Origin: a virus
Reading direction: 5' to 3' (one strand)
Virus record (IMG/VR): IMGVR_UViG_3300025141_000210
Coordinates: 1 to 43,271 of that record
DNA length: 43,271 nucleotides
The notes beneath the pieces were generated by a model. The model had not been told where the DNA came from. It saw nothing but the letters and a program-made list of their open reading frames with translations, and searched no databases. A program made the position numbers and the translations under genes. Each line of letters opens with the position of its first letter. Position 1 is the stretch's first letter. Shown piece by piece: positions 622 through 30,018 of the stretch.

Positions 622-1716
622 TTGAAAAAGATTGGTATAACCCTCCCAGCTAACAAGCTTCTTAACTTTTGGACAAATGGGCTTGGACAAAATGCTATAA
701 CTCTTTATAGGCTTCTCGAAAAACAAGGCTATGATGTTTGGTTTTTAACTGACCGAAATGAAAAACTAAAGACTTCAAAGAACTTAAAGGGAATCAAGTG
801 GAAAGTTGTGTGGGATAGCGTAAAATCAGGAGAGCGTTTCGACCTTCTTCTTGAAACAGGCTTCAGTTTCCAGGGAGGTAATGAGAAATACAGACAACAG
901 CTTACAGACAATATGGTTGCGATCAAGTATGGTAACGAGATCATGTGGGATCTAGAATCAATGACCAAGCAAGGGTGCACAAGGGAAATAATTCCAACTT
1001 CCGACGAGCCTATACAGGAGATATGGATCTCACCGCATTTTCAATTTGGAGATCAATATATCAAGACTAAGCACAAGGCAAGTAGCGTTAAAGTCTGTCC
1101 ATATATTTGGTCAACTGAGTTTATAGAAGACGCAATTAAAAAGTCATCAAAAGACCCGAGGTATTCTCCAGATAACAAGAAGGCGATCGGGGTTTTCGAG
1201 CCTAATTTGCAGATTGTTAAATCGTGTTTGATTCCAGTTATGATCTGCGAGGAGGCGTATAATCAAAATATAGCGTTTGACTCTGCTTGGATTTTTGGAA
1301 CTGATCACATCAGAAAAAGCAAAGAAGTTATTGATCTTTTTAAGAATTTAAAGATCTCACGTGCCGGCAAAATATCTTTTGAAGATCGACGTAGTCTTTG
1401 CTATTGCCTGTCTAATTATGTGGATATTATAATCTCTCATCATCACTTTAATTCTTTGAACTATTTGACTCTTGAGGCACTGTACTTAGGTTATCCTATA
1501 ATTCACAATAGCAAGGATTTTAAAGACGCAGGTTATTATTATGAAGATTTCGACATTCAGGGCGCTGTCAATGCTTTAAGAGATGCTATTGAAAATCACG
1601 ACAATAATCTTGAGGAGTATAAGAAAAAAGGTGAAAAATACATCTGGAAGTACTCACCTGAGAATCCTGAAAATATAAAAGGGTACATTGACTTAATTGA
1701 AGGAACTTTCAAGTGA
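622..1716 (+). CDS. DUF2827 family protein, probable glycosyltransferase-like enzyme (copy 1)
   Basis: 364 residues. The C-terminal half carries what I recognise as DUF2827 hallmarks: VCPYIW near residue 158, GVFEPN at about 190-195, IPVMICEE at about 204-211, SHHHF at about 272-276, then EALYLGYPIIHNS and DAGYYY at about 285-307. The arrangement resembles the C-terminal nucleotide-sugar-binding half of GT-B glycosyltransferases, but no reaction is established for the family. There is no signal peptide or membrane segment. The start is TTG with GGAG 8 nt upstream. The gene overlaps the next one (GTGA, 4 nt) and is paralogous to it along its whole length. Codon use is AT-rich (AGA, AAT, TTT), unlike the upstream gene. 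A role in glycosylating virion fibres or host surface sugars is inference. Confidence 0.78.
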   Translation: MKKIGITLPANKLLNFWTNGLGQNAITLYRLLEKQGYDVWFLTDRNEKLKTSKNLKGIKWKVVWDSVKSGERFDLLLETGFSFQGGNEKYRQQLTDNMVAIKYGNEIMWDLESMTKQGCTREIIPTSDEPIQEIWISPHFQFGDQYIKTKHKASSVKVCPYIWSTEFIEDAIKKSSKDPRYSPDNKKAIGVFEPNLQIVKSCLIPVMICEEAYNQNIAFDSAWIFGTDHIRKSKEVIDLFKNLKISRAGKISFEDRRSLCYCLSNYVDIIISHHHFNSLNYLTLEALYLGYPIIHNSKDFKDAGYYYEDFDIQGAVNALRDAIENHDNNLEEYKKKGEKYIWKYSPENPENIKGYIDLIEGTFK

Positions 1717-2807
1717 AAGTAGGAATCACGTGTGAAGTTAGTACGCTAGCCAAAATATGGTCCAACGGACTCTTTCAAAACTTATTGACTTTATACAGCG
1801 TGCTAGAACAAGCACCAGAAATCAATCCTATCCTAATTTGTAAGATAGATGAAGAACAGACTGAATTAACGAGAAAGATGCTGGGCTCTTCGGGAGTAAA
1901 CTCAGTTTTATTAGATGATGAGACATTTAAGATCACCCCGTCTTTTGACGTAGTTTTAGAAGTAGGATTTGCACTTTCTAAAAAAGACTTTAATCATGTT
2001 AGAAAATCTTCTCCCAAGGCTAAGATTGTACATGTTTGCTACGGAAGTCTTTATTTCACCGCAACAGAAAGAATGGTATTTAGTGACATGTCTTTCGACG
2101 TAAGGGGCCAGAGAGACGAAGTGTGGATCTCGCCTCACTTTGAGTATAGCAAAGATTTTATATCTTCTTTTTTCGAGACAGACAGAGTGAAAATTTGCCC
2201 ATATGTTTGGAATCCTACACTATTAGAAAGTGACATTAAAAAAACAGGACCGGTTAGCACAAATATTAAAAGTGTAGCTATTCTTGAGCCAAGCGTCAAT
2301 ATCTTAAAAACTCCTACGATACCCGCGATGATTTGTAATGAAGTTTTTAAGAAGCAGTCTGATCTAATCGATCATTGCTTTGTTTTCGGAGGAGAAAAAC
2401 TAGTACAAAAAACAATCGCTAATAATATTTTCGGGTGCTTAGCAATTGTTAAAGATGGTAAGTTAACTTTTGAGAAGAGAAAAAAGTTTTCTGACATCTT
2501 TGTTAATCACTGCGGTTTAATAGTTTCCCACCAGCATTTTTGTGAATTAAATTATGTTTACTTAGAGGCGCTACATTTAGGGATACCTCTTGTTCATAAT
2601 TCTCCTATGATTAAAGATGCTGGGTATTATTATCCAGACTTTGAAATCAAAAAGGGCGCTAAAGCTCTTCAAAAAGCAATTGAAACTCATGAATCGCGTT
2701 CAAAAGAATACGACGAGATTTCAAAGAAAACAGTCTGGAATTACTCTTCGAAAAATCCTAAGAACATCAAGGGGTATGCCCACCTAATTGAAAGCCTAAT
2801 TAAATGA
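1713..2807 (+). CDS. DUF2827 family protein, probable glycosyltransferase-like enzyme (copy 2)
   Basis: 364 residues, the same length as the upstream gene and colinear with it: N-terminal VGITCEVSTLAKIWSNGLFQ against GITLPANKLLNFWTNGLGQ, then ICPYVWN, AILEPS, IPAMICNE, VSHQHF, EALHLGIPLVHNS and DAGYYYPDF. This points to tandem duplication followed by divergence. The start is GTG, with GAAGGAA at 1699-1705 as ribosome binding site. The 3' end overlaps the ATG of an acyltransferase remnant (ATGA), so the three genes once formed one translationally coupled unit. The family is known only as DUF2827; a glycosyltransferase-like fold is inferred from the pattern, and substrate and product are unknown. 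Confidence 0.76.
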   Translation: MKVGITCEVSTLAKIWSNGLFQNLLTLYSVLEQAPEINPILICKIDEEQTELTRKMLGSSGVNSVLLDDETFKITPSFDVVLEVGFALSKKDFNHVRKSSPKAKIVHVCYGSLYFTATERMVFSDMSFDVRGQRDEVWISPHFEYSKDFISSFFETDRVKICPYVWNPTLLESDIKKTGPVSTNIKSVAILEPSVNILKTPTIPAMICNEVFKKQSDLIDHCFVFGGEKLVQKTIANNIFGCLAIVKDGKLTFEKRKKFSDIFVNHCGLIVSHQHFCELNYVYLEALHLGIPLVHNSPMIKDAGYYYPDFEIKKGAKALQKAIETHESRSKEYDEISKKTVWNYSSKNPKNIKGYAHLIESLIK

Positions 2808-3065
2808 TTATTTACGAGCTTAGAGACTGAAAAAAACTTAACCAAGATCTCGGTCGAAAAAAAGTAAGCGTCGGTGATTTTACTAAAATAACGGAACATT
2901 CTCAGTCCCAAACTCTATGTAAAAAATCGTTTTTCTGATGATGACATTAGCTTTCTTTTAAATTTAAAATGGTGGGAATGGATGCCAGAAAAAATTGAAA
3001 AAAATAAGCACTTGCTTTTTGGTCAAAGATTTACGTCTAGCATCAAAGATAAATTTACACAATAA
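2804..3065 (+). pseudogene. Remnant of hexapeptide-repeat (CatB-like) acyltransferase
   Basis: From ATG 2804 the frame reads MIIYELRD, then TGA at 2828-2830, then KKLNQDLGRKKVSVGDFTKI, which looks like the N-terminus of a left-handed beta-helix acyltransferase. Shifting to the +1 frame near 2900 gives PKLYVKNRFSDDDISFLLN, LKWWEWMPEKIEKNKHLL and a TAA at 3063. The 'K.RF.....L....WW.W..EKI..N' pattern is typical of the C-terminus of CatB/xenobiotic acetyltransferases and related sugar O-acetyltransferases. The whole central hexapeptide-repeat body, about 100-150 residues, is missing. So the gene has a nonsense codon, a frame change and a large internal deletion. The intact ancestor probably acetylated a sugar alongside the DUF2827 enzymes. 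The call rests on short conserved segments. Confidence 0.68.
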
Positions 3066-3073
3066 ATGAGCTT

Positions 3074-3122
3074 GCTAAATATTTATTCCTGAGTCCCTAC
3101 GTGGTAAAATGTGATACAGTAT
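3074..3122 (+). promoter_or_regulatory. Possible late promoter and palindrome before virion gene
   Basis: The 55-bp gap before ATG 3121 contains GCTAAATATTTATT at 3074-3087, which partly resembles the T4-type late -10 element (TATAAATA). It also contains the palindromic word ATACAGTAT at 3114-3122, which overlaps the start codon. The same word occurs before the gene at 22342 and, in its complementary form, before the portal gene. No clear Shine-Dalgarno sequence precedes ATG 3121. Function is speculative. Confidence 0.28.
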
Positions 3123-4071
3123 GTCCGGAATCCTAAACAAAAAACAACGTTTTGTTGACACAGTCATAACCGATGAAGGTCGGAGACAGCTAGCTAGCGG
3201 AGATTTCCAGATTGAATTCGCCACCTTCTCAGATGGTGAGGCGTTCTATCGAGGAGACCTAGCTTCTGGTACGTTTGACATGCAGCAACTGTTAATGCTT
3301 GAAGCCCCAGCTTCTCATCCCACAGATATTATTACGATGGAGTCCAACCCGTTTGGTAACGTGAGTGCTTACGATTTACCCTCCTTGACAACGGGCAGCT
3401 TACTTAATGGTAGATATACACTGTACAGCGGTTCCAACCAGGAGTTCAGGACGATCCTCTCAGGAACCCAATTTGATCGATTGATCTCAAATATCATCTC
3501 TGAAGGTTTTGATAATTTTAGTCGTTTAGATGTTATTGGCACAATTGATTCTAGCCTTGAAGATCAAGAGCTACTTTTAAATAGAGATAAAATTGAATTT
3601 ATAATAGACGATAATAATGTAGATAGAATTGTTGCAAATCAACAGATTAGAGTCGAGGAGGCAGAGAGTCATTATCAAGACCGCCGCCTATCACATCTAC
3701 CTAATTTTCAATATCTACCGCCAAAAAATATGCCAACACCATCAGATCCTAACGGGACTTTACTATTCCAGTATCCCAACAATCAACAAGCGCCAATTAC
3801 TACTTTTGATCAACTTGAAAAAGAATTGAAGTATCTTCCTAGCGAAACTATTGAGTTTATTAATACATCTCGAGAGAACAACATAGTTATGCAACTGCTA
3901 GATGTGAATCAAAATTTCTTATCTAGGCTTTCCGTTGTTGATTTTGGTGAGTTCGTTACCGATGACCCAGATCACCCAGTCAAAAGAGTCTTTTTCGTAG
4001 GGAAGAATTATCCAGCAGATGAAAACGGAACTCAGACATTTGTTAACTTATTTACAATGGTGCTAGACTGA
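3121..4071 (+). CDS. Virion structural protein with the 'TDEGRRQLA' N-terminal domain
   Basis: 316 residues. The N-terminal ~45 residues (FVDTVITDEGRRQLASGDFQI then FATFSDGEAFY) match the start of the protein at 12839 (ILDAVLTNEGRKRLAANNG then FVFGDDEVDY). I recognise this as a recurrent N-terminal module of virion proteins in large T4-like and marine myophages. The rest has no domain I can name; it is Asn/Gln-rich and ends in a beta-rich stretch. The frame has an in-frame stop just upstream (TGA 3112-3114), so ATG 3121 is the first possible ATG even though the ribosome site is poor. It is followed by the next gene with a one-base TGATG overlap. A tail or baseplate location is inferred from neighbours. 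Confidence 0.6.
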   Translation: MSGILNKKQRFVDTVITDEGRRQLASGDFQIEFATFSDGEAFYRGDLASGTFDMQQLLMLEAPASHPTDIITMESNPFGNVSAYDLPSLTTGSLLNGRYTLYSGSNQEFRTILSGTQFDRLISNIISEGFDNFSRLDVIGTIDSSLEDQELLLNRDKIEFIIDDNNVDRIVANQQIRVEEAESHYQDRRLSHLPNFQYLPPKNMPTPSDPNGTLLFQYPNNQQAPITTFDQLEKELKYLPSETIEFINTSRENNIVMQLLDVNQNFLSRLSVVDFGEFVTDDPDHPVKRVFFVGKNYPADENGTQTFVNLFTMVLD

Positions 4072-6407
4072 TGACTTTTACAGCAGGAAAAAACGTAGCA
4101 TACCAGATGCCACCAGACGTACCTAGCGTCGAAAATCTATTTTCTTTTGACAACATTTCTGTTTCAAGAATTACAAATGTTAGAATTGATAAAAATTTAG
4201 AAGAAGTTATAGATTATGAAATTCGATTTGGAGTTAGTACATCTGATTTTATTTCAACTCAAAAAAAATCCAACTTTACCAAAATCTATAATTTTAAAGT
4301 AAAAATTTATGCAGGTAAGATCCTTGCATCCGAATTTGATGTCCCGTCCAGTTCAATAATAGACCGAAAAGACATAATTCAAGAAGTCATGGTTCCACTC
4401 ACCATCAAAAAAGATATCTTAGACGAATCTTCTGGTACTATCGACCTAGTGATATCTTGTGTCGGAAAAAACAAGTCTAACATTCCGGGCCTTAATGTTC
4501 TTCAAAGGCTTGATTATGTAAGCGATAAACAAAGATATTTTATACCGAACAGTGCTGTTAATATCACCGCATCCCCCGCAAGTCGAACGTCTATGCTTGT
4601 TACTATAATAAACTCAAATAGAACAAATGTTGCGGGGGCAAAAATATATCGTAGAGAAGTAAATTCAAAATCAGGATTTACGATGGTGAAATTGATAAAT
4701 TTTCAAAATACGGTTGGCACTAGAATCGGCAGCGGCTGCGAAGTCAGTTTCATCGATGACGGAAATTCATTTGGAGGAGAAGAATCAAATGGCGCAGGCG
4801 TTCTCAATTCTTTTCTTTCTTATGAATATAGATGTGTCTCCTTTGGTTTTGAGGGTGTAGAAGGAGGAAGATATAGTAAATTCATTACTGTTCCTCTGAC
4901 ATCAAATTCAATTTTATTCGGTGAAGATGTCGAGATTTTATCTGTCCCAAACGCTTCAGCTTACGGTCTAGTAGATCATAACATATTTCCTTATGGCAGA
5001 ATTCCAAAAAATTTCGAGAACACGTCTGTTGTCTCTCAAGTTACCCGAGAAGGAATACTAGTTTCTGTTGGAAATATACCTAAAAATTTTATTGGGTCTA
5101 TTGTTAGAAAAAATATTACTGCCGGAGAGAGAAATTTTTCTCGATTAAAAGACGAAAAAGCGTCAGGTTATATCGGAAGCGATCAGCCCGGAAGCTATAA
5201 CTTTGTAGACTCTGCTGTTATTGATGGATCAACATATCAGTATGGATGTGAATTATTTTCACTCGCTGGTTCAACATCATTAGCAGCTGATACATCAACA
5301 ATGACTTATGTAAATCTAAGTCTTAGAGATATTCCGGGCGTTACTACAAAAGCAATGGTAGTCCAGAAAAATGAGTTTGGAATTTCTTTTAATATAAAGA
5401 CGTATATCCCTGTAAATGAGATTGATGCAACTGTAAGAACACTTCAGGACAGAGGACTATTATCTAGTTTTTCTCAAGACTTATCTGCTAATAGAAGTAA
5501 TTTACAGAACTCATTTGGATACAAAGTTATAAAAATGAACCTCACGACAGGCCAGGAAAATACCTTTATTTCAAACGACAATTCTGTGACTAATTTTAGG
5601 GAAAATTCAAGTGATAAAGACAAAGTTTCTGTAGTAAAATCTTTAATGTTTTATGACTCGGATGTTGTTTCTAAAAATGAATATCGGTATATTGTTGTAA
5701 CTTTAATGAGAGATATTGAGCAGATTTTCGAATCGCAAATTTCAATAGTTGATGAAACTAATTCTTATATCTTTTTTCCTGCTAAGTACCGGCATCCCTT
5801 AGTATTAAGAAAAGGAATTCTCCCCCCAACCAAGCCAGGAAAATTTTATGAACTTGGCCTAATTAAGAATGAAAACACCAACCCAGTTCGTCTTTTGTCC
5901 AGAACGACTGCGCTTTCTGAGTTTGAATTAGGCGAAATATCAGCAAGGGCTTTTATACCAGATCAAGCCAGCTCAATAATTCTTCCGGTAGGAAATGGTA
6001 ACAAATTAAACGTCCAGCCAGCAGTCTTGAAGACTAGTTCTCCATCTACTATCGCTAAATGGACAATGATCGGAATAGAAAATATAGACTATTTTATGGT
6101 AAAAATTATTGACACATTTTTTAATAAGTCAAAAAAGAAAATAGCAGAAAGAATCGACTTGCTCCCACCGTTTTCAAATGACGAAAGGAATAAATTTAAG
6201 TCAGAAAATATAATTAATCGATTTAATGACAAAGCCACGAATAATGATGAAATAATTACCTTTAATGATGTAGCTGAAAACCAGATATTATCGTCAACAG
6301 CAAAAGTTTCTAGAATTTATGAAATAACGCCTGTTTACTTTGATGGAAGTTTTGACTTATCGCAGACAACAAAGCCTGTCGATGTGACGAAGGAAGTAAC
6401 TAGATGA
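4071..6407 (+). CDS. Large virion protein with fibronectin-III-like repeats
   Basis: 778 residues, predicted mostly beta. At least two stretches look like fibronectin type III or similar Ig-like sandwiches: about residues 165-285, ending YEYRCVSFGFEGVEGGRYSK, and about 325-420, ending QYGCELFSLAGSTS. Both end in the 'Y.Y....' strand typical of FnIII strand F, with KIYRREV / SIVRKN earlier as the 'V.R' strand. There is no signal peptide and no catalytic motif. Start and stop overlap both neighbours (TGATG at 4071; ATGA at 6404-6407), so expression is coupled. FnIII modules are common on exposed phage tail and capsid proteins and often contact surface glycans. The exact structure this protein belongs to is unknown. 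Confidence 0.55.
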   Translation: MTFTAGKNVAYQMPPDVPSVENLFSFDNISVSRITNVRIDKNLEEVIDYEIRFGVSTSDFISTQKKSNFTKIYNFKVKIYAGKILASEFDVPSSSIIDRKDIIQEVMVPLTIKKDILDESSGTIDLVISCVGKNKSNIPGLNVLQRLDYVSDKQRYFIPNSAVNITASPASRTSMLVTIINSNRTNVAGAKIYRREVNSKSGFTMVKLINFQNTVGTRIGSGCEVSFIDDGNSFGGEESNGAGVLNSFLSYEYRCVSFGFEGVEGGRYSKFITVPLTSNSILFGEDVEILSVPNASAYGLVDHNIFPYGRIPKNFENTSVVSQVTREGILVSVGNIPKNFIGSIVRKNITAGERNFSRLKDEKASGYIGSDQPGSYNFVDSAVIDGSTYQYGCELFSLAGSTSLAADTSTMTYVNLSLRDIPGVTTKAMVVQKNEFGISFNIKTYIPVNEIDATVRTLQDRGLLSSFSQDLSANRSNLQNSFGYKVIKMNLTTGQENTFISNDNSVTNFRENSSDKDKVSVVKSLMFYDSDVVSKNEYRYIVVTLMRDIEQIFESQISIVDETNSYIFFPAKYRHPLVLRKGILPPTKPGKFYELGLIKNENTNPVRLLSRTTALSEFELGEISARAFIPDQASSIILPVGNGNKLNVQPAVLKTSSPSTIAKWTMIGIENIDYFMVKIIDTFFNKSKKKIAERIDLLPPFSNDERNKFKSENIINRFNDKATNNDEIITFNDVAENQILSSTAKVSRIYEITPVYFDGSFDLSQTTKPVDVTKEVTR

Positions 6408-6829
6408 AGAAGTTTAAATATGGAAATTCTCCGTCTTTTGTTGTCAAGGAACCAATTGTAAAAACCGCTAAAACAAACCAGACACAGTCTCAGAAATTGC
6501 TAGATACTGAAGGGCCTACTAATTTAAAAGCTCCAAAAGAAAATATAAATTCTAATTTTAGCATTGTAGATCAAAAAGTGAAGTCTGTTGATGTTAAAAT
6601 TAATTCAAAAAAATCTAATCAAGGTGTTAATCCAGAAGAAGGCGTGAGTAAGCTTTCTAATTTTAAGACGAAGGAGGCTGTTGAACTAGAAAAAAATAAC
6701 GAATATGATAAAAATCCAAGTTCATATACTAAAAAAGCAACTTCCCAGTCAACATCTAGAAAAAAGAAGATTTTAAGAGATCAAGTAAATATGAATATTA
6801 TTAACGGCCCAGGCGGCTGGAAATTATAG
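6404..6829 (+). CDS. Small Lys/Ser/Asn-rich protein, unknown
   Basis: 141 residues and low complexity: rich in Lys, Ser, Asn and Thr, strongly basic in the second half (SRKKKILRD), with little predicted fold. It ends in NIINGPGGWKL. It overlaps the previous gene by ATGA and lies 9 bp before the 1347-residue gene, so it is part of the virion operon. I recognise no family. A disordered linker or chaperone for the neighbouring large proteins is possible, but that is a guess from position only. The uninterrupted frame and coupled start support it as a real gene. Confidence 0.5.
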   Translation: MKKFKYGNSPSFVVKEPIVKTAKTNQTQSQKLLDTEGPTNLKAPKENINSNFSIVDQKVKSVDVKINSKKSNQGVNPEEGVSKLSNFKTKEAVELEKNNEYDKNPSSYTKKATSQSTSRKKKILRDQVNMNIINGPGGWKL

Positions 6830-6838
6830 GTAAGAAAA

Positions 6839-9800
6839 ATGGCTATAGAAGAACCTGAAGTAGAAGAAGGAATAGAAGATCCAATAGATCAGGCAGAAGA
6901 TCAAGGGCCTCCACTCCATGCCTTCGCTTCTCCCAGAGCGGTGGATGGGGTTAGTCACCCATCACATGCAAGAGGTGTATCAGTAATCACGCCTGAGATT
7001 GTGTCTATTTTTGATTTCAAACCTCTTTTTGATATAGACGGCACTGTTACTCCTGCAGGTAATCTTTTTGAAATCCAGAATAATGCGAGAAGAGTAAGAG
7101 TAAATCAAATGAATGAGCTTTTCTCTCTGCTTACAAAGGATCCTAATAAAAATTACGCTAAGATAATCGAAAGACTCAAAGTTGCAATGTCTGAAGAAAT
7201 GTATAAAGCTGACGAAGATTGTGATGATCTTCTGTCGCTATATAATAATTTTTATACTATGCTAATGTCTTTCGATATTAGTGCACCCTGGTCCATGCCC
7301 GCTATTCAAAATATAATGCAAAAAGTTAGGAATAGCAGGATCCAGACATTAGATTCGTCTCTAGTCTATCCCAGCCTTCTAGATGTAGAAGCTTTTACAG
7401 ATATCCTTGAACGAAACCATCGAGTCCCACGCGTAGGAGTTAATTATGAAAACTCTTCAAATACTAAGCTTTTGTATGTCATTGCATGGGATCTGTATTG
7501 GCATATGCGAAATACAACGAGAAAGCCTTGGGAGATTATCGATGCAAATAGAAGGGCCTATCGTGAGGACTGGGATGGAGGTGATTCTTCAAGGTTTCGA
7601 TTTATGCCCCGACCAGGGCTCGGCGTCCCTGAAAACTACCAAGGAATGTCCGCAGCAACAATTTCGCCTCGTGTTGGTGAATCAAACCGGTCCACACCTT
7701 TCCACCCAGGTCGCCTTGGCTTGTCTAGACATATGATGAATACTGTGCATGATGATGTTGAATACGGCGAAAACCTGGGATATTATAGTCATGACGATGT
7801 TTTAGCAACTTTTAAAGCAGGCGACATAGGATCCCCAGCAGAAGATCTCTATGACGCTGCTTTCTTTCTTAAATACGCTTGCAAAGACATGTCACTATCG
7901 ACAGCTCACGAAAATCCCGCATATAAAGAAATTTTAGTTAGTAAGCTCCGTCGCTCACCTGAAAGAACCCAAGTCATTCCTGCCCAAGAGTTGTTCAAAA
8001 ACTCCTTTCCGATGTTCCATACAGGAGAAGATTCTCCATCAAATGCATTAAATTATCCTACAAGCTTTTCTCTTGATGAGCAAGTCCAAAATGACCTTAC
8101 TTTCGCAAGATCGATTAAAAGAGAGCCTGAAAAAGTAACCGCATCTTCACGTCCAACTCCTTTGTTTGATCCTTTGTTACACGGGTTTTCCCCCGCCGGC
8201 ACTAAAATTGAGAATATGCAAATCCTTCTTAGGGACAAAGAATCGTTAGAAAATGTATTAGAAAACGTAAGTGGTTTATCTTCGACTGCAGAAGCTATCG
8301 AAGAAGTGCTTTCTTTGTCTGAGCCAGATCTTCAACCAATAGGAGTTTTTAATAAAGTTCTTGATGCATTCTCTTCTGCTCTTGAGCGGCTTAATCCTAA
8401 GCCCGTTTCATCGCGAAGCGGTCTGCAAGGGTCTTTGTCCGCAGGCACGCACAGCGGCTATTATAACGATGGAGATTTTTTGGATTTTGCAATCCTCTCT
8501 GAATGTATCAAGAACGTCCGCAGAGAAGGGCATTTCTCCGGTGACGCTGGAAACGTATGGACAAGTGTCATTCCTATGATTGATCTTGTTAACATGCTTC
8601 TTTATAAGCTCGGGAGAAGCAGCGGATTTTATTCAAATGTCTCCCTTAGTCCTGGTTCGCCCATCGTTATAGACTCTACTGGCGAAACAGAGGATGCTCC
8701 GAATACTAAGCTTTTACAAAATATTGAGTCAATGATAGCAGGTTATCTTGTTGATGGTTCTTCTCACTGGTCTGAGTTTTATGCTAGAAGAAATGATGAC
8801 AGCATAAATGGTGAAAACGTGGGTGAAGCTGACTATGCCATTTACGGGGGAGTCTATTGGGAAAACCGACTCCGACCTTTCAGGGGAAACGACAAACATC
8901 TCGCAACCACAGAATCAAGGCTGTCAACTATCTCAGTGGACTGCGGTAATGATGGATGGTATAATGCTCGTAATAGCAATGAGCTCTTTGTTCTAGATGG
9001 AAACGGCGGTCAATCTGCAGCAAAGCTTATGGATCAAGCCAAAGTAACCAGGCTTTTAACTGAATTAACGTCAGGGGACCGACCATCTATTTTTCGAGAT
9101 ATTGTTAACATCTTAAATGATATGGACACTGCTGCACTTTCCAGAGGATCTTACTTCCTGGAGAATGAGCATACAGGCATGAATAAAATGAAGAACTCTC
9201 TTGTAGACGTTAGTGTAATTGGATCGTTTGTCTTGCAGGCATTCTCAAAAATATCCCACGCGCTCACAGGAATTACTTTTAATGTCGCAAGATACACCAG
9301 AAACCACTCCGGAAGATTTGTGTGGCTTCGTACGCGTGCAGATGATTACAGGGAAGTTAAGTTTGCTGAAGCTATGAAGAAATATAAAATTCATGGTATC
9401 GAATACTTGTATTCAAGCGAAGGGGCACAAAACTTTGCTGCATCCCTTCTCGCTGACACAATAATAAGCAGTCTTCGATCTGAGCAAAAGAGAATAGTTG
9501 ATTCCGTTGATTTACTAAAATCAATAAAGCTTTATGCAGACAGGAACATTGACAGGTATTTACAATTATTTAATTCCGACAACCGGGCTTCAAGAATTTT
9601 AGAAAATTTAGATGAGAATGACGGTCGTCTTTTAACAGTTTCTAATCCATCTCAAATAGCTTTGGCAAAAAATAAGCTATCGACTCTCTGGGAAAGAATT
9701 ATAGATGAAAAATATTTTGATGATTTTATGATGTCCGCCACCCCAGAAACTGCTGTTCTTTCTACATGTATCAATCCAGAATTCACCAAAGGCATTGCTG

Positions 9801-10882
9801 ATAATTTAAAGATAATGACTGTTGGAATACCAGATGGATTTAGTCGAATTGCGTTAGGTTACGATCGAAAAAGTGCAGATTTGGCAGCATCAAGAACAAA
9901 AGTTACTATAAGAGTTTATCGTCATGATATCATCTTAAATGATACAATTTTAGATTTCACTCTAGGTGCGCAACCAGGAGATGCTAGAGGAGATCTTGTC
10001 CTAAAAATTAAGTTCAAACCACAGGAATTTGAGTTTGACATGAGAACATTTTTTAAAGATCTTTCTCCCTTAGACGCGCCAGCTGATGCTAGAGTAACCC
10101 AGCTAGACAATGAGGGAAACTTATTAGAGAAACCAAAAACAATTGATCAAAGAAGCTATAAAGATATCAGCGATGTAATTAGAAACCACATGATTTTTAG
10201 AAAGTTTAGAGATGACGGCCACAGCAGCCAGATACGCTTCCCTTTTGAGGGAGCAGAACAAGAACAGCAAAGATTTAAAAACCACTGTTTTGATTACATC
10301 GCAAAAACATACGTCAGGGCAATGACAGGTCTCAATCTTGATGAAGAAAGCTTTTTAATCGACAAAGAAAAAGAAAGTATAAAAATAAATTCTGACGAAG
10401 CACTTGAGTTCTTTGAGTTAGTGCAAGGTTATGTTAATGATAAAACAAATACTGAGACTTCTTTAGAGAATTATCTTGCTGGAAGTAGATCAACACGCGA
10501 GCTTCTCAGAAGACTTAAGGGCATGCCACCTGCCGAACCACTTCTAGATGTAATAGACGTCAATGACAATGATTTACCTGAAGAATTAAATGAAATGCTC
10601 ATTCAAGATATTATTAATTTTATTAAAATGATAAATTCTCATAATTTGATTTTTACTGCCAGTACTGATAGACAAAAACTCATCGAGCCAAAGCTTTTTG
10701 AAAGAATATTTTGTATGTTTGTTGATCCTGATTCATTTGAAATCGACGGTAACATGGACGGGATTCTTAAAAACAAGATGATCGAAGCAGGGTTGTTAAA
10801 TCAAGAAGGAACCAAGCTATCTGAAACATACAGGGAATCAGGTGTTCCTCAATTTAACCAGTTTTATGTAGAGGTGGTTTGA
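6839..10882 (+). CDS. Giant virion protein (1347 residues), unknown family
   Basis: This is the longest gene in the window. The first ~25 residues are acidic (EEPEVEEGIEDP). The rest is mixed alpha/beta with no recognised domain, no signal peptide and no repeats. Helical segments such as ELFSLLTKDPNKNYAKIIER and DLLSLYNNFYTMLMSF alternate with polar loops. Near the end, ENYLAGSRSTRELLRRLKG and LIQDIINFIKMINSHNLIFT are helical. The ribosome site is TAGGTAAG before ATG 6839. It is followed one base later by the next gene. Size and position among structural genes suggest a baseplate, tail-hub or internal virion protein, but that is inference. I see no evidence for polymerase or protease motifs. 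Confidence 0.55.
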   Translation: MAIEEPEVEEGIEDPIDQAEDQGPPLHAFASPRAVDGVSHPSHARGVSVITPEIVSIFDFKPLFDIDGTVTPAGNLFEIQNNARRVRVNQMNELFSLLTKDPNKNYAKIIERLKVAMSEEMYKADEDCDDLLSLYNNFYTMLMSFDISAPWSMPAIQNIMQKVRNSRIQTLDSSLVYPSLLDVEAFTDILERNHRVPRVGVNYENSSNTKLLYVIAWDLYWHMRNTTRKPWEIIDANRRAYREDWDGGDSSRFRFMPRPGLGVPENYQGMSAATISPRVGESNRSTPFHPGRLGLSRHMMNTVHDDVEYGENLGYYSHDDVLATFKAGDIGSPAEDLYDAAFFLKYACKDMSLSTAHENPAYKEILVSKLRRSPERTQVIPAQELFKNSFPMFHTGEDSPSNALNYPTSFSLDEQVQNDLTFARSIKREPEKVTASSRPTPLFDPLLHGFSPAGTKIENMQILLRDKESLENVLENVSGLSSTAEAIEEVLSLSEPDLQPIGVFNKVLDAFSSALERLNPKPVSSRSGLQGSLSAGTHSGYYNDGDFLDFAILSECIKNVRREGHFSGDAGNVWTSVIPMIDLVNMLLYKLGRSSGFYSNVSLSPGSPIVIDSTGETEDAPNTKLLQNIESMIAGYLVDGSSHWSEFYARRNDDSINGENVGEADYAIYGGVYWENRLRPFRGNDKHLATTESRLSTISVDCGNDGWYNARNSNELFVLDGNGGQSAAKLMDQAKVTRLLTELTSGDRPSIFRDIVNILNDMDTAALSRGSYFLENEHTGMNKMKNSLVDVSVIGSFVLQAFSKISHALTGITFNVARYTRNHSGRFVWLRTRADDYREVKFAEAMKKYKIHGIEYLYSSEGAQNFAASLLADTIISSLRSEQKRIVDSVDLLKSIKLYADRNIDRYLQLFNSDNRASRILENLDENDGRLLTVSNPSQIALAKNKLSTLWERIIDEKYFDDFMMSATPETAVLSTCINPEFTKGIADNLKIMTVGIPDGFSRIALGYDRKSADLAASRTKVTIRVYRHDIILNDTILDFTLGAQPGDARGDLVLKIKFKPQEFEFDMRTFFKDLSPLDAPADARVTQLDNEGNLLEKPKTIDQRSYKDISDVIRNHMIFRKFRDDGHSSQIRFPFEGAEQEQQRFKNHCFDYIAKTYVRAMTGLNLDEESFLIDKEKESIKINSDEALEFFELVQGYVNDKTNTETSLENYLAGSRSTRELLRRLKGMPPAEPLLDVIDVNDNDLPEELNEMLIQDIINFIKMINSHNLIFTASTDRQKLIEPKLFERIFCMFVDPDSFEIDGNMDGILKNKMIEAGLLNQEGTKLSETYRESGVPQFNQFYVEVV

Positions 10883-10883
10883 T

Positions 10884-12797
10884 ATGACCAGATCAAATAA
10901 GTCAAACAGCGCCTTCATTTTTGACCTTCCTGCAGTAGAAGACATATCAGGGATCTTTAGATATAATTTTTTTACAAAAGATGAATCTATCGATGATCTA
11001 GATGATGTAGCTAAAACTCCATCATTTTGGGCTCGACCGAAACCAAAAAATCGACCTAGATACAATCTGATAGTGTTCCAAGAGCCCAACCTCAGCAGCC
11101 TAGACTCAGAAATCTTAGGTTCAGCCCACCCTTCTTCTCTTGCTGCCATATCTACAATATTCAATTTAACAGGTGGCGAACATGAACTTGATCCTGCGTC
11201 GCTTGTAAAAGCTGCTAAAAATGATTTGCAATTAATTCCAACGTCCAAGTTCTCAGATATAACTTTTCAAGATACAAATGTTGGATCAAAACTGTTTACC
11301 CTTGTCCAAAAAGCAGTAAATAGAATGGTCATTGCAGAGAATGAAAAAGTCCAGAGTGAAATTGACCAAGAAAGATTTGATTTTCTTTCACGTCGACTAG
11401 GTAGTCAAAATGATTATGCCCGGATCCTCGGAAGAGAATTTGAAAATGTAAATGAAGATTTCCTTCTCGCGTCATTGAATCAAACACAGATGCTTAATGA
11501 AGCCTTTATTGATGAGTCAGAAAAGAAAGATCTGACAAAATCTATTTTTGACAAAGTTAAATCTTTGACATTAAATGCAAGAGTAAACGATAAGATTGTA
11601 GGCTCTGCAGTGCGAACAGTTATAAATGAAGGTGTAAGCCTGTATTCTGAGGAGCTTGTTGCGAACGAATCTGCTGCAAGTCAAATTGAAGATCGTGCAG
11701 GAAGCACGGCTAATTTCTTTCCAGATGCTGCTTATTTTACAATTTCTGATATGTACGGACTTCCACCGCATGCTGAACAAGATCAAAGTAAAATATCTTT
11801 AGATATTGTTGGATATGTGATTGACAAATTTCAAGATCTAGGGAATGGAAATGTAGTAGAGAAGGAACCAGTTTTTGTAAGTTCAACTTTTCATAGATGG
11901 CCTTCGTCTAATGTAATGCTAGGATACGATTTCGACATTGCGTATGGAACTACGTACTCCTATTCGGTACGCGCAATCTATTTAATGTCGATGCCTGTAA
12001 AGAACGACGATCAGGTTTCTAGCTCATACTTTTTTGTCTCATCGAAACCTTCAAATATAGTTCATTTACAAACTCATGAGATAGTTCCACCTGAACCACC
12101 CGCTGACTTTATTGTAACATTTGACTATCAAAAGCAAAAACCTCTTCTTATGTGGAGCTTTCCGTTCAATAAGCAAAATGATGTCAAAAGATTCCAGGTG
12201 CTAAGAAGGAGAACAGTTGACGATCCTTTTGAGCTGATTCATGAAATAGATTTTGATGACTCTATTGTCAAGTATGATACTCCTGAGTTTATAAGCCCAC
12301 ATCTCAAAAGAAAGATGAAGAATCCGATAACGTTTTTTATTGATGAAAAATTTGAACGCGATCAAAGCTTCATTTATACGCTCCGGTCAATAGATGCCCA
12401 CGGACAAATGTCAGGTTATGGAGAGCAAATCCATGCGAGATATGATAGATTTACCAATAGGCTAGTAACTAGCTTAATTTCGATCCGAGGCACCCGCACC
12501 GGATGCCCTGTCCAGTACCCTAATTTCTATATAGACAAGAAGGTTCTTCATGAGACTGCAAAGGATTCTAATCATTCAAGAGTTAAACTTTATCTAGATC
12601 CTGAATATTTAAAGGTGTTAACTAGTGATCCAGACGATCCGCAGAGAACCCAAGATCTTCATTTTTTACCGTTCAGTGGTGACAATGAAGATGACTTAAC
12701 GTCTAGGTTTAAGCTGCAGATTTTAAATACGGATTTACAGCAGTCTAAGATTGTGGATATATTTATAAAAGACAGAAGAGCCAGTGAAGATAATTAG
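10884..12797 (+). CDS. Virion protein with C-terminal fibronectin-III-like domains
   Basis: 637 residues. Residues ~1-290 are mainly helical and unrecognised. Residues ~300-395 (ending AYGTTYSYSVRAIYLMS) and ~403-520 (PPEPPADFIVTFD, KPLLMWSFP, VKRFQVLRRR, QSFIYTLRSIDAHGQMSGYG) look like two successive FnIII-like domains. The second has the expected 'L.W..P', 'Y.V.R' and 'Y.Y.....D..G..S.Y' strand pattern. The end (SRFKLQILNTDLQQSKIVDI) is beta-rich. The ribosome site is GAGGTGG before ATG 10884. The domain type links it to the 4071 gene. A tail/baseplate protein is probable; the precise position is unknown. Confidence 0.58.
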   Translation: MTRSNKSNSAFIFDLPAVEDISGIFRYNFFTKDESIDDLDDVAKTPSFWARPKPKNRPRYNLIVFQEPNLSSLDSEILGSAHPSSLAAISTIFNLTGGEHELDPASLVKAAKNDLQLIPTSKFSDITFQDTNVGSKLFTLVQKAVNRMVIAENEKVQSEIDQERFDFLSRRLGSQNDYARILGREFENVNEDFLLASLNQTQMLNEAFIDESEKKDLTKSIFDKVKSLTLNARVNDKIVGSAVRTVINEGVSLYSEELVANESAASQIEDRAGSTANFFPDAAYFTISDMYGLPPHAEQDQSKISLDIVGYVIDKFQDLGNGNVVEKEPVFVSSTFHRWPSSNVMLGYDFDIAYGTTYSYSVRAIYLMSMPVKNDDQVSSSYFFVSSKPSNIVHLQTHEIVPPEPPADFIVTFDYQKQKPLLMWSFPFNKQNDVKRFQVLRRRTVDDPFELIHEIDFDDSIVKYDTPEFISPHLKRKMKNPITFFIDEKFERDQSFIYTLRSIDAHGQMSGYGEQIHARYDRFTNRLVTSLISIRGTRTGCPVQYPNFYIDKKVLHETAKDSNHSRVKLYLDPEYLKVLTSDPDDPQRTQDLHFLPFSGDNEDDLTSRFKLQILNTDLQQSKIVDIFIKDRRASEDN

Positions 12798-12838
12798 TTA
12801 TATCACCACCAAACCGACTAAATACCAGGAGTGAAGAA

Positions 12839-13525
12839 ATGGGATTTCTTGCCAACGACACAAATAACATTATATTAGATGCAGTTCTTACCAATGAAGG
12901 AAGAAAAAGGCTTGCAGCAAACAACGGGTCTTTTCAAATTACGCATTTTGTATTTGGGGATGATGAAGTAGACTACAAGATGATTCAAAAGTATGGGCGA
13001 ACCGTTGGTAAGGAAAAGATTGAGAAAAACACTCCTGTCTTGGAAGCGCTAACTAATTCAAATATTGAAAGAGACAACTTGTTAGTTTCTTTATCAAATG
13101 ATGGCCTCACATCACTTTCCACATATACAGTGAGCAGTGAAGATATTACACTCTCTAATACTGTGTCCCGAGCTGATGCCAGTGGTTTATTTACTGTCCA
13201 GCAGCAACCGCCGTCCGGTCAATCTATTCCTTCTGAAATTCGCGACTCTATGATTATTGTGTCGCTTAATAGTAAGTTTCTAACTTTAGGCAATAATACT
13301 CCATTTATGCAAGATGGAAATACCAAGTATTATTTTGTAGCAACTTCTGCAAAAGGCGACATTCCAACTTTTCAAGTTAACATTCAAAATAAAGTCCTTA
13401 CAACAGCGGACTTTACAACATTTGGCGCAACGTCAGATAAAACAACAATTAAGACAGTAGTAAGAGTACAAGGAAGAATGTCTGGGCTTAACAAAGACAT
13501 ACAAGTGACTCTAAACAAGAATTAG
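12839..13525 (+). CDS. Virion structural protein with the 'TNEGRKRLA' N-terminal domain
   Basis: 228 residues. The N-terminus (IILDAVLTNEGRKRLAANNG, then FQITHFVFGDDEVDYKMI) is the same module as in the 3121 protein. The remainder is Ser/Thr/Asn-rich and beta-like, ending VRVQGRMSGLNKDIQVTLNK. The ribosome site AGGAG lies 7 nt before ATG. The upstream 41-bp gap contains CTAAATAC at 12818-12825, but it is too close to the start to serve as a promoter with a normal leader. The family is recurrent in large myophages as an unassigned structural protein; a tail-tip or baseplate position is inferred. Confidence 0.6.
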   Translation: MGFLANDTNNIILDAVLTNEGRKRLAANNGSFQITHFVFGDDEVDYKMIQKYGRTVGKEKIEKNTPVLEALTNSNIERDNLLVSLSNDGLTSLSTYTVSSEDITLSNTVSRADASGLFTVQQQPPSGQSIPSEIRDSMIIVSLNSKFLTLGNNTPFMQDGNTKYYFVATSAKGDIPTFQVNIQNKVLTTADFTTFGATSDKTTIKTVVRVQGRMSGLNKDIQVTLNKN

Positions 13526-13537
13526 TGAGGTAAGTAA

Positions 13538-14806
13538 ATGCCAACATCAAAAGCGTTCGGACCAGCAGATGTGCAAACAGCGCAGTCATTTTTGACACAG
13601 CTTATTGACATCGTCCAAGAAGATATTTCTGGATCTGTAACCAGAAGAAAATATCAAGTTTTCGTCACCGGCGGAGTGGGGCCAGGTGTAACATCATCTC
13701 TGTTCCAGACTGTATATGATCAAGACTTTTCTTTACAGACATCAAACCCAGTTTTTGATATGTCTGTGGGTATATTCTCTGGGTCTTCAACAGTTAGCAA
13801 CTCTTCTACAGGCATTGAGTCTACAGGAAAGCTTTTATTTCCTTCAACTAGCTTGATGATGAGAGAAAAAGTTGATTCATACCATGAGTTTGCTCAAACT
13901 CTTCTGGGTGATAGAGACAGAGCTTTCTTTTCTCCGTTTACCAATAATAATTCTACTGACAGTCTTACTACGACATCTAATCGAATCAATAATGCAATGT
14001 TCTTGACCTTTAAGCGTCTCTTCCATAGGGATGGAATTAAGAAAGAAACATTCGCGATGAAGTTCTACCAATCAGCATCTCGTGCCCCAATTTCTGGATT
14101 TCTCGGTGATGAAGGTTCCAACTTAAATGTAACATCTGTTTCCGGCTCCTCAATCTTTACAGATGCAGGTTCCGCCGCAACGTATAAAGTTTCAAATGCA
14201 GGTGGCACAGTTGGTGATATTGTTAACTCTTCTAACACAGATGAGTCTGTAGGTTTGATGTTTTATGATAGAGGGGTCGCCGTATTTAATTTAGATTTAA
14301 TACTCTCCGGTAACCAGCATGTGTCAGGTGTGATCGATGCAATGTCTAACGCCTCAACTATTGATGGAGACTCTATTTCTGCAGGTAAGACAGTAATTGG
14401 GTCTGTAGCAGGAAATATTGATGCTAAGTTCATTCCAGACTTAATGGTGTCAGCATCTATTGACAATATAGTCGACCATCTTTCTTCTACAAGATTTAGT
14501 AGCGGTACTCTCACAGCGGCAACATTCCAGAATTTAACAAATATTAATTCTACACTTTACTTCTGCAGAGCTACTGCTGACGAATTTAACTACTCGTCCA
14601 ACCCAACCTACTTGGATCCAGATGGAAACATCAATGTAATCGAAGCGTCAGCAAGGCAAGATGGAACACAGAAATCTTTTACTTTCATAACTAAGGTTGG
14701 GATGACTGATGAACAAGGAAATCTTTTGGCTGTCGCTAAGCTAAGCCGCCCTGTTGAGAAAAATCCTGAAAAGGATGTTACGTTCCGCGTAAGATTAGAC
14801 TTCTGA
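13538..14806 (+). CDS. Virion protein with the shared '-RLDF' C-terminal domain
   Basis: 422 residues. The N-terminal half contains NNAMFLTFKRLFHRDGIKKE (residues ~151-170), a motif I recall from structural proteins of marine myophages. The C-terminal part, from about residue 236 (VGLMFYDRGVAV) through SSNPTYLDPDG to VAKLSRPVEK and the terminal VTFRVRLDF, parallels the end of the 14884 protein. The ribosome site is GAGGTAAG before ATG 13538. The gene ends inside an in-frame 12-bp tandem duplication that repeats the terminal codons. A wedge or tail-associated structural role is likely; there is no enzymatic motif. Confidence 0.6.
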   Translation: MPTSKAFGPADVQTAQSFLTQLIDIVQEDISGSVTRRKYQVFVTGGVGPGVTSSLFQTVYDQDFSLQTSNPVFDMSVGIFSGSSTVSNSSTGIESTGKLLFPSTSLMMREKVDSYHEFAQTLLGDRDRAFFSPFTNNNSTDSLTTTSNRINNAMFLTFKRLFHRDGIKKETFAMKFYQSASRAPISGFLGDEGSNLNVTSVSGSSIFTDAGSAATYKVSNAGGTVGDIVNSSNTDESVGLMFYDRGVAVFNLDLILSGNQHVSGVIDAMSNASTIDGDSISAGKTVIGSVAGNIDAKFIPDLMVSASIDNIVDHLSSTRFSSGTLTAATFQNLTNINSTLYFCRATADEFNYSSNPTYLDPDGNINVIEASARQDGTQKSFTFITKVGMTDEQGNLLAVAKLSRPVEKNPEKDVTFRVRLDF

Positions 14807-14815
14807 TTAGACTTC
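14792..14815 (+). repeat. 12-bp tandem duplication across a stop codon
   Basis: AGATTAGACTTC (14792-14803) is followed directly by TGATTAGACTTC (14804-14815). The second copy begins with TGA, the stop of the 13538 gene, where the first copy has AGA (Arg). It looks like an in-frame duplication of the terminal RLDF codons in which Arg became a stop. A second small direct repeat, ATGACAATAT twice (14873-14882 and 14884-14893), surrounds the start of the next gene. Confidence 0.8.
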
Positions 14816-14883
14816 TTTTTGTGGGAAGGTCCTCTACGATCAATGAACTGAATTTTTTGAAAGTCTTTTGAGATGACAATATC

Positions 14884-17337
14884 ATGACAATATTTAAAAT
14901 CAATAGAGACAATTTCGAAAATACTACGATCCAGGCGACGCCAGGCAGAACCTTCAGTTCAAGCTCTTTAGGAGTAACAGGGTCGATCAATGTTTTTCCT
15001 AGAAGATCGCATATTGAGAAAGAGTTAGGATCACCACCCTCCGTCATGGGCATCCCGATGGCTTTTGATGACAACTTTGTCGGGTTGATGTGGGGCGCAG
15101 CTTCACACCTGTTGGCAGCGGACATAGCAAACCCTGCCATAAATACTGACTACAGCGGTGTTATGGAGCTTGTGCTTGAAGTAATAAACGACATCCCGCC
15201 ATCGCAAATTATTCACAACTCTTCGGGAACAATTAATAGGCTTACAAGGTCTGTTAATGAAAATGCTTCTTTTGAGAAGAAAAGATACATAACTGATAAT
15301 TTATACCCAGCCAATAGAGTTGAGTTTCCATCATCTCATTTTTCTTATACAAACTATCATTCTCTTAATTTTTTTACTGCATCCCAAGTACCAACGCAAG
15401 CGTGCTTACTATACCCCAACTCAGCATCAATCGCGCATGAAACTAAAGCCTCTGGCTCTTATGTAGTAGATGACGGTTTTACTTTTGAATTCCACATTAA
15501 TCCTAAAAATTATTTTGAAGCTAACGATTCTGGATATAGCGCAGGAACTATTTTACATCTAAGTTCTTCTTATGCCATTTCTCTTGTGTCTGGGTCTTCA
15601 AAAGATGAAAGAGGCAATGCTGATAAATTTAGAATTCAACTACAGTTAAGCCACAGCGCTGATGTCACACCAGCTGAAGCAATTCAAGGATCATATCCCA
15701 ACGACTTGATCTTCCTGTCAGATGACAATGTCCTTGATGTTAACTCATGGAATCATGTTGCAATACGGTGGAAAAATAAGAGAAATGCAAATTCTGGATC
15801 TTTTGTTGTCAACAATATTGAAAAAGGATCATTTGTTCTTCCGTCAAGCTCAATTGCGCCAGCCGCGTATGCAGGTGGATCGAACCCAGGCAATCCCGAT
15901 ATTCTTGTAGTAGGAAATTACTATGTTGGTGATAATGCAGGTGTCAACAAGCAAGCTAAGTTCTTTTCTTCGCAGGTCGCCTCGTATTTTGGGTTGGTAA
16001 ATTTAGACCCAGCTGAAACAGAGGTTGTCCCAGAATCATATGACTTTGTCTCACCTCTAAATGCTGAGATGCACGATCTTAAGATATTCACAGGCTATAG
16101 AGACGATGATCAAGTGTATACAGGGTCTATTCAGGGCGCATCGTCTAGAAAAGAAAAAGATCTTGCCTTGCATGTCCCACCATTTTTCTCTAAGGAGTCA
16201 CCCTATAGAAAAGTTAGGAAATCATTAAACGCAGCGTTCGGTTTCCTTGGCAAACCCATGTATCAAAGAACAGAAAATCCGTTTAATGCATGGGTTTCCT
16301 TTAATGTTGGCGGGCACATTCTCAATTTAGAGAATTTTACAAGAGACTTATCTACATTAAATTTCCCAAGACACATGTCTTTAACAGGCGCTATAGATAC
16401 TGAAATACCACTTCCTTCAACTACTGCTACTGCAAATGATGGAATTTTTGATGTTCCCGAACTAAGATATAGAAACTTATTTCTTCTTCCTTGCGATGAC
16501 GGAAATTTTAAACCTAACTTTGCGCTGGTGGAGACAGGAAGCATTCCATCCACACCTGTTAAGTCTGGGTCTTTATTTTATCACTACACAAATGATTTAG
16601 ATTATGTCGATATGAGTATGATCAAATTGAGAGAGCTGATACCCTCACAATCTTTCCCGCAAGTAGGAAATCAAGGATATGAAACCATCCGCGCCCAATC
16701 AAGAATTTTAGATCAATCAGATCAGTACGCCAATCCAGAAAATCCAACAAGGCCCGCATATGTTTTACCAGCAGTTTATGGAAGAACGCTAGACAACAGC
16801 TCTGATGAAGTCATAATATTTGATATTACTAAACTTTATTATGGTGAGAAGATCCGTCCTGGCACGCTCCAAATGACAGATACTTCTCTGACAGGGTCCG
16901 GCGGTCAAATTAGCATGACCCTCAAGGATGATGGATACGGAAATCTGTATAGATCGAGCGCATCTACTACGAATGCAACATGGAACTCAGTTGGCAATGT
17001 TTTTTATGACGAGGGTATTGTTGTTGTTAAATCACCTAACATTCCCCTCTTTGGAAAAGATCAATTTGAGATGTCGTTTAAAGGGCAGCATGAAGTTCAT
17101 GTTCTTAAACTTCATGTTATAGCACCTGCTGCTACTCTTAATTCTTCTTCTAACCCTTCTTATATCCCAGTTTCTGCATCATTGAATGCAAATGAGACTA
17201 ATCCAGAGTTTGTTGCAATCACAGGAATTAATTTTCACGATGACAATTTAAACGTTATAATGAAAACGAAATTCGCGCAACCCGTGATCAAAAGAACAGA
17301 TGATCGCGTGATGTTCCGCAGTAAGCTGGATTTTTAA
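14884..17337 (+). CDS. Virion protein with LamG-like lectin domain and '-KLDF' C-terminal domain
   Basis: 817 residues. The N-terminus includes SSSLGVTGSINVFPRRSHIE, a conserved-looking segment in virion proteins of this type. Residues ~195-410 fit a concanavalin-like LamG/jelly-roll domain: DDGFTFEFHINP, GTILHLSSSYAISLV, VNSWNHVAIRWKN, SFVVNN, LVVGNYYVG and MHDLKIFTG, in that order. LamG-type domains on phage tails usually bind carbohydrate. From ~702 the sequence (VGNVFYDEGIVVV, SSNPSYIPVS, KFAQPVIK, VMFRSKLDF) parallels the end of the 13538 protein. The ATG has only a weak ribosome site, and a ten-base direct repeat surrounds it. It overlaps the next gene by one base. The likely role is tail adhesion or structure. 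Confidence 0.65.
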   Translation: MTIFKINRDNFENTTIQATPGRTFSSSSLGVTGSINVFPRRSHIEKELGSPPSVMGIPMAFDDNFVGLMWGAASHLLAADIANPAINTDYSGVMELVLEVINDIPPSQIIHNSSGTINRLTRSVNENASFEKKRYITDNLYPANRVEFPSSHFSYTNYHSLNFFTASQVPTQACLLYPNSASIAHETKASGSYVVDDGFTFEFHINPKNYFEANDSGYSAGTILHLSSSYAISLVSGSSKDERGNADKFRIQLQLSHSADVTPAEAIQGSYPNDLIFLSDDNVLDVNSWNHVAIRWKNKRNANSGSFVVNNIEKGSFVLPSSSIAPAAYAGGSNPGNPDILVVGNYYVGDNAGVNKQAKFFSSQVASYFGLVNLDPAETEVVPESYDFVSPLNAEMHDLKIFTGYRDDDQVYTGSIQGASSRKEKDLALHVPPFFSKESPYRKVRKSLNAAFGFLGKPMYQRTENPFNAWVSFNVGGHILNLENFTRDLSTLNFPRHMSLTGAIDTEIPLPSTTATANDGIFDVPELRYRNLFLLPCDDGNFKPNFALVETGSIPSTPVKSGSLFYHYTNDLDYVDMSMIKLRELIPSQSFPQVGNQGYETIRAQSRILDQSDQYANPENPTRPAYVLPAVYGRTLDNSSDEVIIFDITKLYYGEKIRPGTLQMTDTSLTGSGGQISMTLKDDGYGNLYRSSASTTNATWNSVGNVFYDEGIVVVKSPNIPLFGKDQFEMSFKGQHEVHVLKLHVIAPAATLNSSSNPSYIPVSASLNANETNPEFVAITGINFHDDNLNVIMKTKFAQPVIKRTDDRVMFRSKLDF

Positions 17338-29228: not shown

Positions 29229-29801
29229 ATGAAACTTAAAGAGTACGTCAATGGAATACGCCCTGATTCCCGCGGCGGCTCCGGGTACGGAAATACCCAA
29301 AAAGATCTGTCAGGATATGGCAGTCCATACACCAAAAATTCTTATTTCCCCTATGGCGATCCCGTAGAAGAAGTAGAAGATCAAGACGCCATTCACAACT
29401 CCGCTACTGCAAAGAAATTTAACGCAAAGTTAAATAGAAATTATGTTAGTAATAACCCAGCAGCTCGTTCCACTGCAGACAGGGGAGCATATGTTAACGG
29501 CTCAACCAGACTCGACCTATACGAGACAAAGTTTTCCCTTAAGAATATAGATGAGCTATTATTGCTCCATGAATCAACAGGCGGGATCTCCCAGCTCTAT
29601 GCCATGGGCAATGGCGCAGGAATTTTTAAGGTCCACACTGGTAAGACTATTGGAATGAATATTGGCAGCTCTCATAATGTGTTAGCTGTAAAAACAAAAA
29701 AAAGAATTTATAGTCTAAAGGATGTCCTTCTGGGAAGCCTAAATGACGAGGAAGAAAATGAAGAATTACAGAGACAAAAAGAAATTCAACAGCAGGCGTA
29801 G
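29229..29801 (+). CDS. Unknown head-module protein
   Basis: 190 residues from ATG 29229, one base after the upstream stop. A longer in-frame start at 29199 would run 30 bp into the previous gene without a ribosome site. The first ~90 residues are Gly/Tyr/Asn-rich and disordered (GGSGYGNTQKDLSGYGSPY). From about 95 onward it is ordered: LYETKFSLKNIDELLLLHES, GIFKVHTGKTIGMNIGSSHN and KKRIYSLKDVLLGSL. Its 3' end contains the start of the bS21-like gene. No family is recognised. Confidence 0.45.
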   Translation: MKLKEYVNGIRPDSRGGSGYGNTQKDLSGYGSPYTKNSYFPYGDPVEEVEDQDAIHNSATAKKFNAKLNRNYVSNNPAARSTADRGAYVNGSTRLDLYETKFSLKNIDELLLLHESTGGISQLYAMGNGAGIFKVHTGKTIGMNIGSSHNVLAVKTKKRIYSLKDVLLGSLNDEEENEELQRQKEIQQQA

Positions 29802-30018
29802 AGAAGAGCCTGTAAGCTCTGGAACATGCTTGACGGTTCATCTCCGTGATGGAGAGACAGCAGAAAGCTTAGCAGTAAGATTTAAAAGAATGTATAAAAG
29901 AACAGGTCTTCAAGATGAAGTTCGAAATGCCTATCTTGGGTATCATAAAACAAAGTCAGAGAAGAAAAGAGAGAAGCACGTACGTGCTGTAAAAAGATTA
30001 AAGAGAGATCAACGATAA
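29758..30018 (+). CDS. Ribosomal protein bS21-like
   Basis: 86 residues from ATG 29758 (GAGGA spaced 5 nt); an in-frame ATG at 29743 is possible. After ~20 basic residues it reads LTVHLRDGETAESLAVRFKR, MYKRTGLQDEVRNAYLGYHK, TKSEKKREKHVRAVKRLKR. This follows the bS21 pattern seen in Escherichia coli S21: a V.V...E....AL.RFKR strand and helix, G..EVR, Y.K....R..K...AVKR. bS21 is the last small-subunit protein and sits near the anti-Shine-Dalgarno end of 16S rRNA. Phage-encoded bS21 is known in some large and marine phages. It overlaps the upstream gene by 44 bp, in the head operon. The alternative is a basic prohead core protein that mimics it. Confidence 0.7.
   Translation: MKNYRDKKKFNSRRREEPVSSGTCLTVHLRDGETAESLAVRFKRMYKRTGLQDEVRNAYLGYHKTKSEKKREKHVRAVKRLKRDQR

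Follow-up and report, generated by a model that had tools for sequence, protein, structure and literature searches.

The 43 kb virus contig under study, analysed over its whole length of 43,271 nucleotides (the window), carries a gene for what is, on profile evidence, a homologue of ribosomal protein bS21, placed within a T4-type head-gene cluster directly before the scaffold-like and capsid genes. It is moderately probable that this phage bS21 is made late and enters host 30S subunits, where it would support initiation. Both the placement of bS21 next to phage capsid genes and the proposal of late ribosome retuning are already in the literature; the present case adds a family of large aquatic T4-like phages, probably with Shine-Dalgarno-using hosts, to the phages with a head-cluster bS21. 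Relatives with and without bS21 in a similar neighbourhood provide a natural comparison for the use of a phage bS21, and with Mel-JY01, a distant relative in culture, the question of timing and ribosomes becomes testable.

Identity of the bS21 homologue

The predicted protein consists of MKNYRDKKKFNSRRREEPVSSGTC followed by the bS21-like core LTVHLRDGETAESLAVRFKRMYKRTGLQDEVRNAYLGYHKTKSEKKREKHVRAVKRLKRDQR. Residues ~1-24 form a basic N-terminal extension and residues 26-83 the core, in which about 58 residues are similar to bS21, so the earlier reading of a bS21 pattern over some 60 residues holds. An alternative in-frame ATG lies at 29743; the start at 29758 is preferred because both the AGGA upstream of it (Table 1) and the relatives favor that position. 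The NCBIfam equivalog model for S21p, TIGR00030, scores 30.5 bits on the window protein (E 2.4e-7), above the curated cut-off of 28.95, while PF01165 scores 24.2 bits (E 2.7e-5), below its gathering cut-off of 27. The profile search that had been proposed as a check was thus positive with the first model and fell short with the second. The shortfall marks the window bS21 as divergent; since four relatives do pass the PF01165 cut-off (29.9-33.5 bits), it reflects divergence and not membership of another family.

Searches of PDB sequences point the same way. With the single protein, phmmer returned 19 matches, all 19 of them bS21 (best E 0.0045). With a profile built from ten phage relatives, all 28 matches at E <= 1 were to bS21 or S21, and the best reached E 1.5e-9; plastid and gammaproteobacterial-type bS21 ranked near the top and Flavobacterium johnsoniae last. 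All ten phage family members match TIGR00030, again at E <= 1. Across the phage family and the bS21 of E. coli, F. johnsoniae, and plastid, positions E33, R41-F42-K43-R44, G50, K73, and A77 are at least 90% conserved. The window protein shares with these cellular proteins the ~58-residue core, with RFKR and other conserved positions, but is only 25-33% identical to them and has the additional N-terminus of ~24 basic residues. In the AF2 model (pLDDT 75) the N-terminus is disordered and helices span residues 35-49, 51-60, and 66-85. The top seven Foldseek matches to this model are E. coli bS21, mitochondrial small-subunit chains, and a Chlamydomonas chloroplast ribosome chain, all with weak E-values (0.09 or above), which is no surprise for a very small protein of two helices; the best, E. 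coli bS21, has a probability of 0.94 but an E-value of 0.09 and a TM-score of 0.39 by query length. Taken on these profile matches, ORF 29758-30018 is a bS21 gene.

The head-gene cluster

The cluster lies on a single strand in the order TerL, portal, protease, four unknown genes, bS21, scaffold, and gp23 capsid (Table 1), which bears out the placement of bS21 just before the scaffold and capsid genes in the earlier note. TerL, portal, protease, and capsid are all within eight genes of bS21. Chen et al. 2022 used a distance of ten genes, and found structural genes that close to bS21 in 388 of 900 phages (PMC9723584).

Table 1. Coordinates of bS21 and of the surrounding features in the window
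Feature	Start	End	Strand	Remarks
Terminase large subunit (TerL)	22775	24373	+	phrog_2, E 4.2e-48
Portal protein, gp20 family	24467	26380	+	PF07230, E 4.5e-79
Prohead protease, gp21 / S77 family	27197	27811	+	PF03420, E 6.7e-24
Upstream gene g190, 190 aa	29229	29801	+	3' end overlaps bS21 by 44 nt
Shine-Dalgarno AGGA of bS21 gene	29749	29752	+	within upstream gene; duplex energy -5.9 kcal/mol
bS21 homologue ORF	29758	30018	+	ATG to TAA, 86 aa, pI 10.6
T-run, nine T	30031	30039	+	right after bS21 stop; T-rich tract kept in close relatives
ATATTTAA, late-promoter-like octamer (ATAWTTAN)	30050	30057	+	22-29 nt before scaffold start
gp22-like head scaffold, acidic, pI 4.1	30079	31686	+	by position and conservation
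Major capsid protein (MCP), gp23 family	31743	33641	+	PF07068, E 2e-75

The overlap of bS21 with the gene upstream of it is real, and is shorter (8-23 nt) in ten other phages than in the window. The description of that neighbor, g190, as a head gene follows from its position, as no family match was found for it. The scaffold-like gene likewise had no significant match in Pfam or PHROG, an Rfam search gave no match within the window, and no clear stem was detected at the T-run behind bS21. Far upstream, window positions 622-16800 hold a long stretch of large genes, the longest of 1347 codons; those tested had no PHROG match at E 0.01, which is unusual in a T4-like phage.

Distribution and selection

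Eighty capsid relatives were retrieved for comparison. The close relatives that span the bS21 stretch all carry the gene in the same slot and orientation and with the overlap, and they make up a single 11-row clade of the MCP tree (support 99/98). Scanning with the family profile also found bS21 in the head-cluster slot of the more distant L059, L063, and L077. Wherever relatives have bS21 there, as in the window, it is co-directional with the structural genes. About 30 other relatives, some of them near-duplicates, have the stretch and no bS21; in L071 and L041, for instance, the scaffold comes immediately after the upstream gene. Contig L075 may begin with a truncated bS21, its C-terminal half, at positions 1-171 ahead of the scaffold gene (E 0.52).

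When presence and absence are placed on the capsid tree, four changes are required, and in a bS21 tree that includes a few bS21s of cells and of other phages, the phage family forms one group (84/86). Both trees are compatible with one old bS21 gene that has repeatedly been lost, although an alignment this short makes weak evidence. A single gain within the clade is not a safe conclusion, the same slot being occupied in L059, L063, and L077. Because related heads are built from the same cluster, with equally strong Shine-Dalgarno sites, in phages without bS21, the protein is accessory.

The bS21s of the phage family are 34-76% identical to the window protein with the frame conserved. Outside the overlap, dN/dS is about 0.1 for the pair L006-L007 (0.061/0.603) and about 0.2 for L010-L108 (0.034/0.18), most other pairs being saturated at synonymous sites; judged from these ratios, the gene is under purifying selection. 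In L003 (IMGVR_UViG_3300002242_000001) several genes have frameshifts, including portal, scaffold, capsid, and the start of bS21. As bS21 is not the only gene disrupted on this contig, faulty assembly is the probable cause of the break near its start. An N-terminally extended bS21 also occurs on a 372-kb phage contig (L004:7935-8198), where it adjoins, by eye, a ClpP-like protease gene and not head genes.

A promoter-like octamer between bS21 and the scaffold gene

The sequence ATATTTAACAGTGTAGATGGGTGA between bS21 and the scaffold gene is nearly invariant across the clade and contains a match to ATAWTTAN. Of 36 distinct relatives, 26 have this octamer upstream of the start of the scaffold gene, and all but one of these 26 have it between -24 and -31; the background expectation is 0.013 per 55 nt. 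The site is shared by the window, L002, L006, L007, L010-L012, L041, L104, and others, and occurs in relatives with and without bS21 alike. The octamer is also found before 17 of 41 neck genes, but before only 1 of 66 capsid, 1 of 31 protease, and none of seven upstream-gene copies. Sigma-70 promoters and terminators were no commoner than in shuffled sequences.

By its position and recurrence, ATAWTTAN looks like the late promoter of the family, comparable to TATAAATA of T4. Because it stands before the scaffold gene in relatives with and without bS21 alike, bS21 more likely closes the unit ahead of it. If the octamer is a promoter, scaffold and capsid would make up a single unit, with bS21 at the end of the one before; both units would be late, but bS21 would not simply be co-expressed with the capsid. 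The earlier note had envisaged joint expression with the most abundant proteins of the virion; the layout does not point to this, since the octamer separates bS21 from the scaffold-capsid pair. Late expression of a head-cluster bS21 is nevertheless the natural expectation.

Shine-Dalgarno use and the host

Strong Shine-Dalgarno sites, with a predicted duplex energy no weaker than -5 kcal/mol, precede 20 of 32 window genes versus 11% of 879 internal ATGs, so the host ribosome very probably reads them. Strong AGGAG-type sites had been taken to fit a protein acting near the anti-Shine-Dalgarno region, but a tie between Shine-Dalgarno strength and bS21 was rejected: all 6 relatives with bS21 and all 56 without it have a strong site at the capsid start, and the strength at protease and g162 starts hardly differs between the two groups. 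Strong sites are thus no indication that a phage bS21 is at work.

In Bacteroidota, Tyr54 of bS21 helps to hide the anti-Shine-Dalgarno (PMC9976891, PMC9723584). In an alignment of this short and divergent protein, the position of F. johnsoniae Tyr54 is occupied in the phage family by Lys or Arg, not by an aromatic residue, which is consistent with a host of a kind other than Bacteroidota. The wide use of Shine-Dalgarno sites also argues against a Bacteroidota host. As a clue to the host, the nearest cellular bS21 was sought in scans of genome collections, which gave no confirmed relative.

Comparison with known phage bS21s

The position of bS21 near protease and capsid genes, its late co-transcription, and a model in which it replaces host bS21 and favors phage mRNA were published by Chen et al. 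2022 (PMC9723584). The late switch beside the capsid genes is thus not new, and Mel-JY01 has the same neighborhood. In the Bacteroidetes jumbo phages of clades a-e (PMC9723584), for which a late takeover of the ribosome was proposed, bS21 lies, as in the window, a few genes from TerL, portal, prohead protease, and capsid. Those bS21 genes are, however, on the strand opposite to the structural genes, whereas that of the window is co-directional and overlaps its upstream gene; the clades infect Bacteroidetes and keep an aromatic residue where F. johnsoniae bS21 has Tyr54, in contrast to the Shine-Dalgarno sites and Lys/Arg found here.

The cultured Microcystis phage Mel-JY01 (PP395634) carries an annotated RpsU that lies, on the same strand, between the protease and capsid genes of a T4-type head cluster, and its MCP, protease, scaffold, and neck proteins are homologous to those of the window. 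Its rpsU differs in being followed by three hypothetical genes before the capsid and in not overlapping the upstream gene. The two bS21s are too divergent for a pairwise BLASTP match, but the family profile finds that of Mel-JY01 at 1.2e-14.

Phage bS21s come mostly from aquatic viruses (Mizuno et al. 2019, PMC6375957). That of the Pelagibacter phage HTVC008M is flanked by cobS and hsp20, away from the head cluster and so unlike the window gene, and falls in another, weakly resolved part of the bS21 tree. An unannotated bS21-like ORF was noticed upstream of scaffold and capsid in the 484-kb uncultured phage LR756508.1 (L114:3774-4049). A tblastn search of INPHARED with the window protein gave no match even at E 1; as Mel-JY01, HTVC008M, and the 484-kb phage all have bS21, a single-sequence search is too weak here.

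Proposed role and alternatives

The phage bS21 would be made late, as the last gene of the unit preceding the scaffold-capsid unit. It would then join the platform of the host 30S subunit near the 3' end of 16S rRNA, where it may replace or supplement host bS21 and support initiation while phage structural mRNAs dominate. Late timing is suggested by the gene's position and by published transcripts of other phages, in which bS21 is transcribed late with capsid genes (PMC9723584). Incorporation is suggested by the retained bS21 core and by the HTVC008M protein, which was incorporated into E. coli 70S ribosomes (PMC6375957). In an in vitro E. coli system, ribosomes with that protein gave only ~5% of normal product (PMC6375957), so incorporation may not stimulate translation. 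The mechanism put forward in the earlier note is reasonable, and already published.

How far this role extends can be read in several ways. The phage may simply top up bS21, or offset loss or autoregulation of the host protein, so that 30S initiation is not limiting and no message is selected. This is a serious possibility, though short of an even chance: the gene is in a late position, the core is retained, wide Shine-Dalgarno use fits ordinary initiation, and autoregulation of host bS21 is known in Flavobacterium (PMC9976891). A plain copy, however, would need neither the N-terminal extension nor a divergent core, and the genome-collection scans did not find a nearest host bS21.

Those two features would instead suit a phage bS21 that makes the 30S subunit prefer late phage messages over those of the host, with the switch timed by the gene's place in the head cluster. 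N-terminal extensions occur on many phage S21 proteins, for which promotion of phage initiation was proposed (Al-Shayeb et al. 2020, PMC7162821); bS21 adjoins the anti-Shine-Dalgarno region, and the selective model has been published (PMC9723584, PMC7162821). This is possible but rather unlikely, as no feature of phage messages tracks bS21, the capsid, protease, and g162 sites being strong with or without it. More doubtful still is the broader proposal that the slot ahead of the scaffold promoter has long housed bS21, kept or lost by lineage, from which an N-extended protein re-programs Shine-Dalgarno-using host ribosomes toward late phage messages, unlike the masking in Bacteroidota.

It is improbable that the former ribosomal protein now serves as a basic internal protein of the prohead core, or travels in the virion and enters the cell at infection. 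Its slot adjoins scaffold and protease, its charge would suit such a role, and Chen et al. raised the idea that phage bS21 may be packaged in the virion (PMC9723584). The (L/I)xE protease site is nevertheless absent from the window bS21 and rare in its orthologues, while scaffold, protease, capsid, and neighboring proteins have it; core bS21 residues are retained, and related heads are built without bS21. A chance or relic ORF of S21-like composition, which weak single-sequence scores and a Lys/Arg-rich composition might suggest, is refuted by family-profile matches to bS21 alone and by dN/dS, with the frame conserved under purifying selection in many phages.
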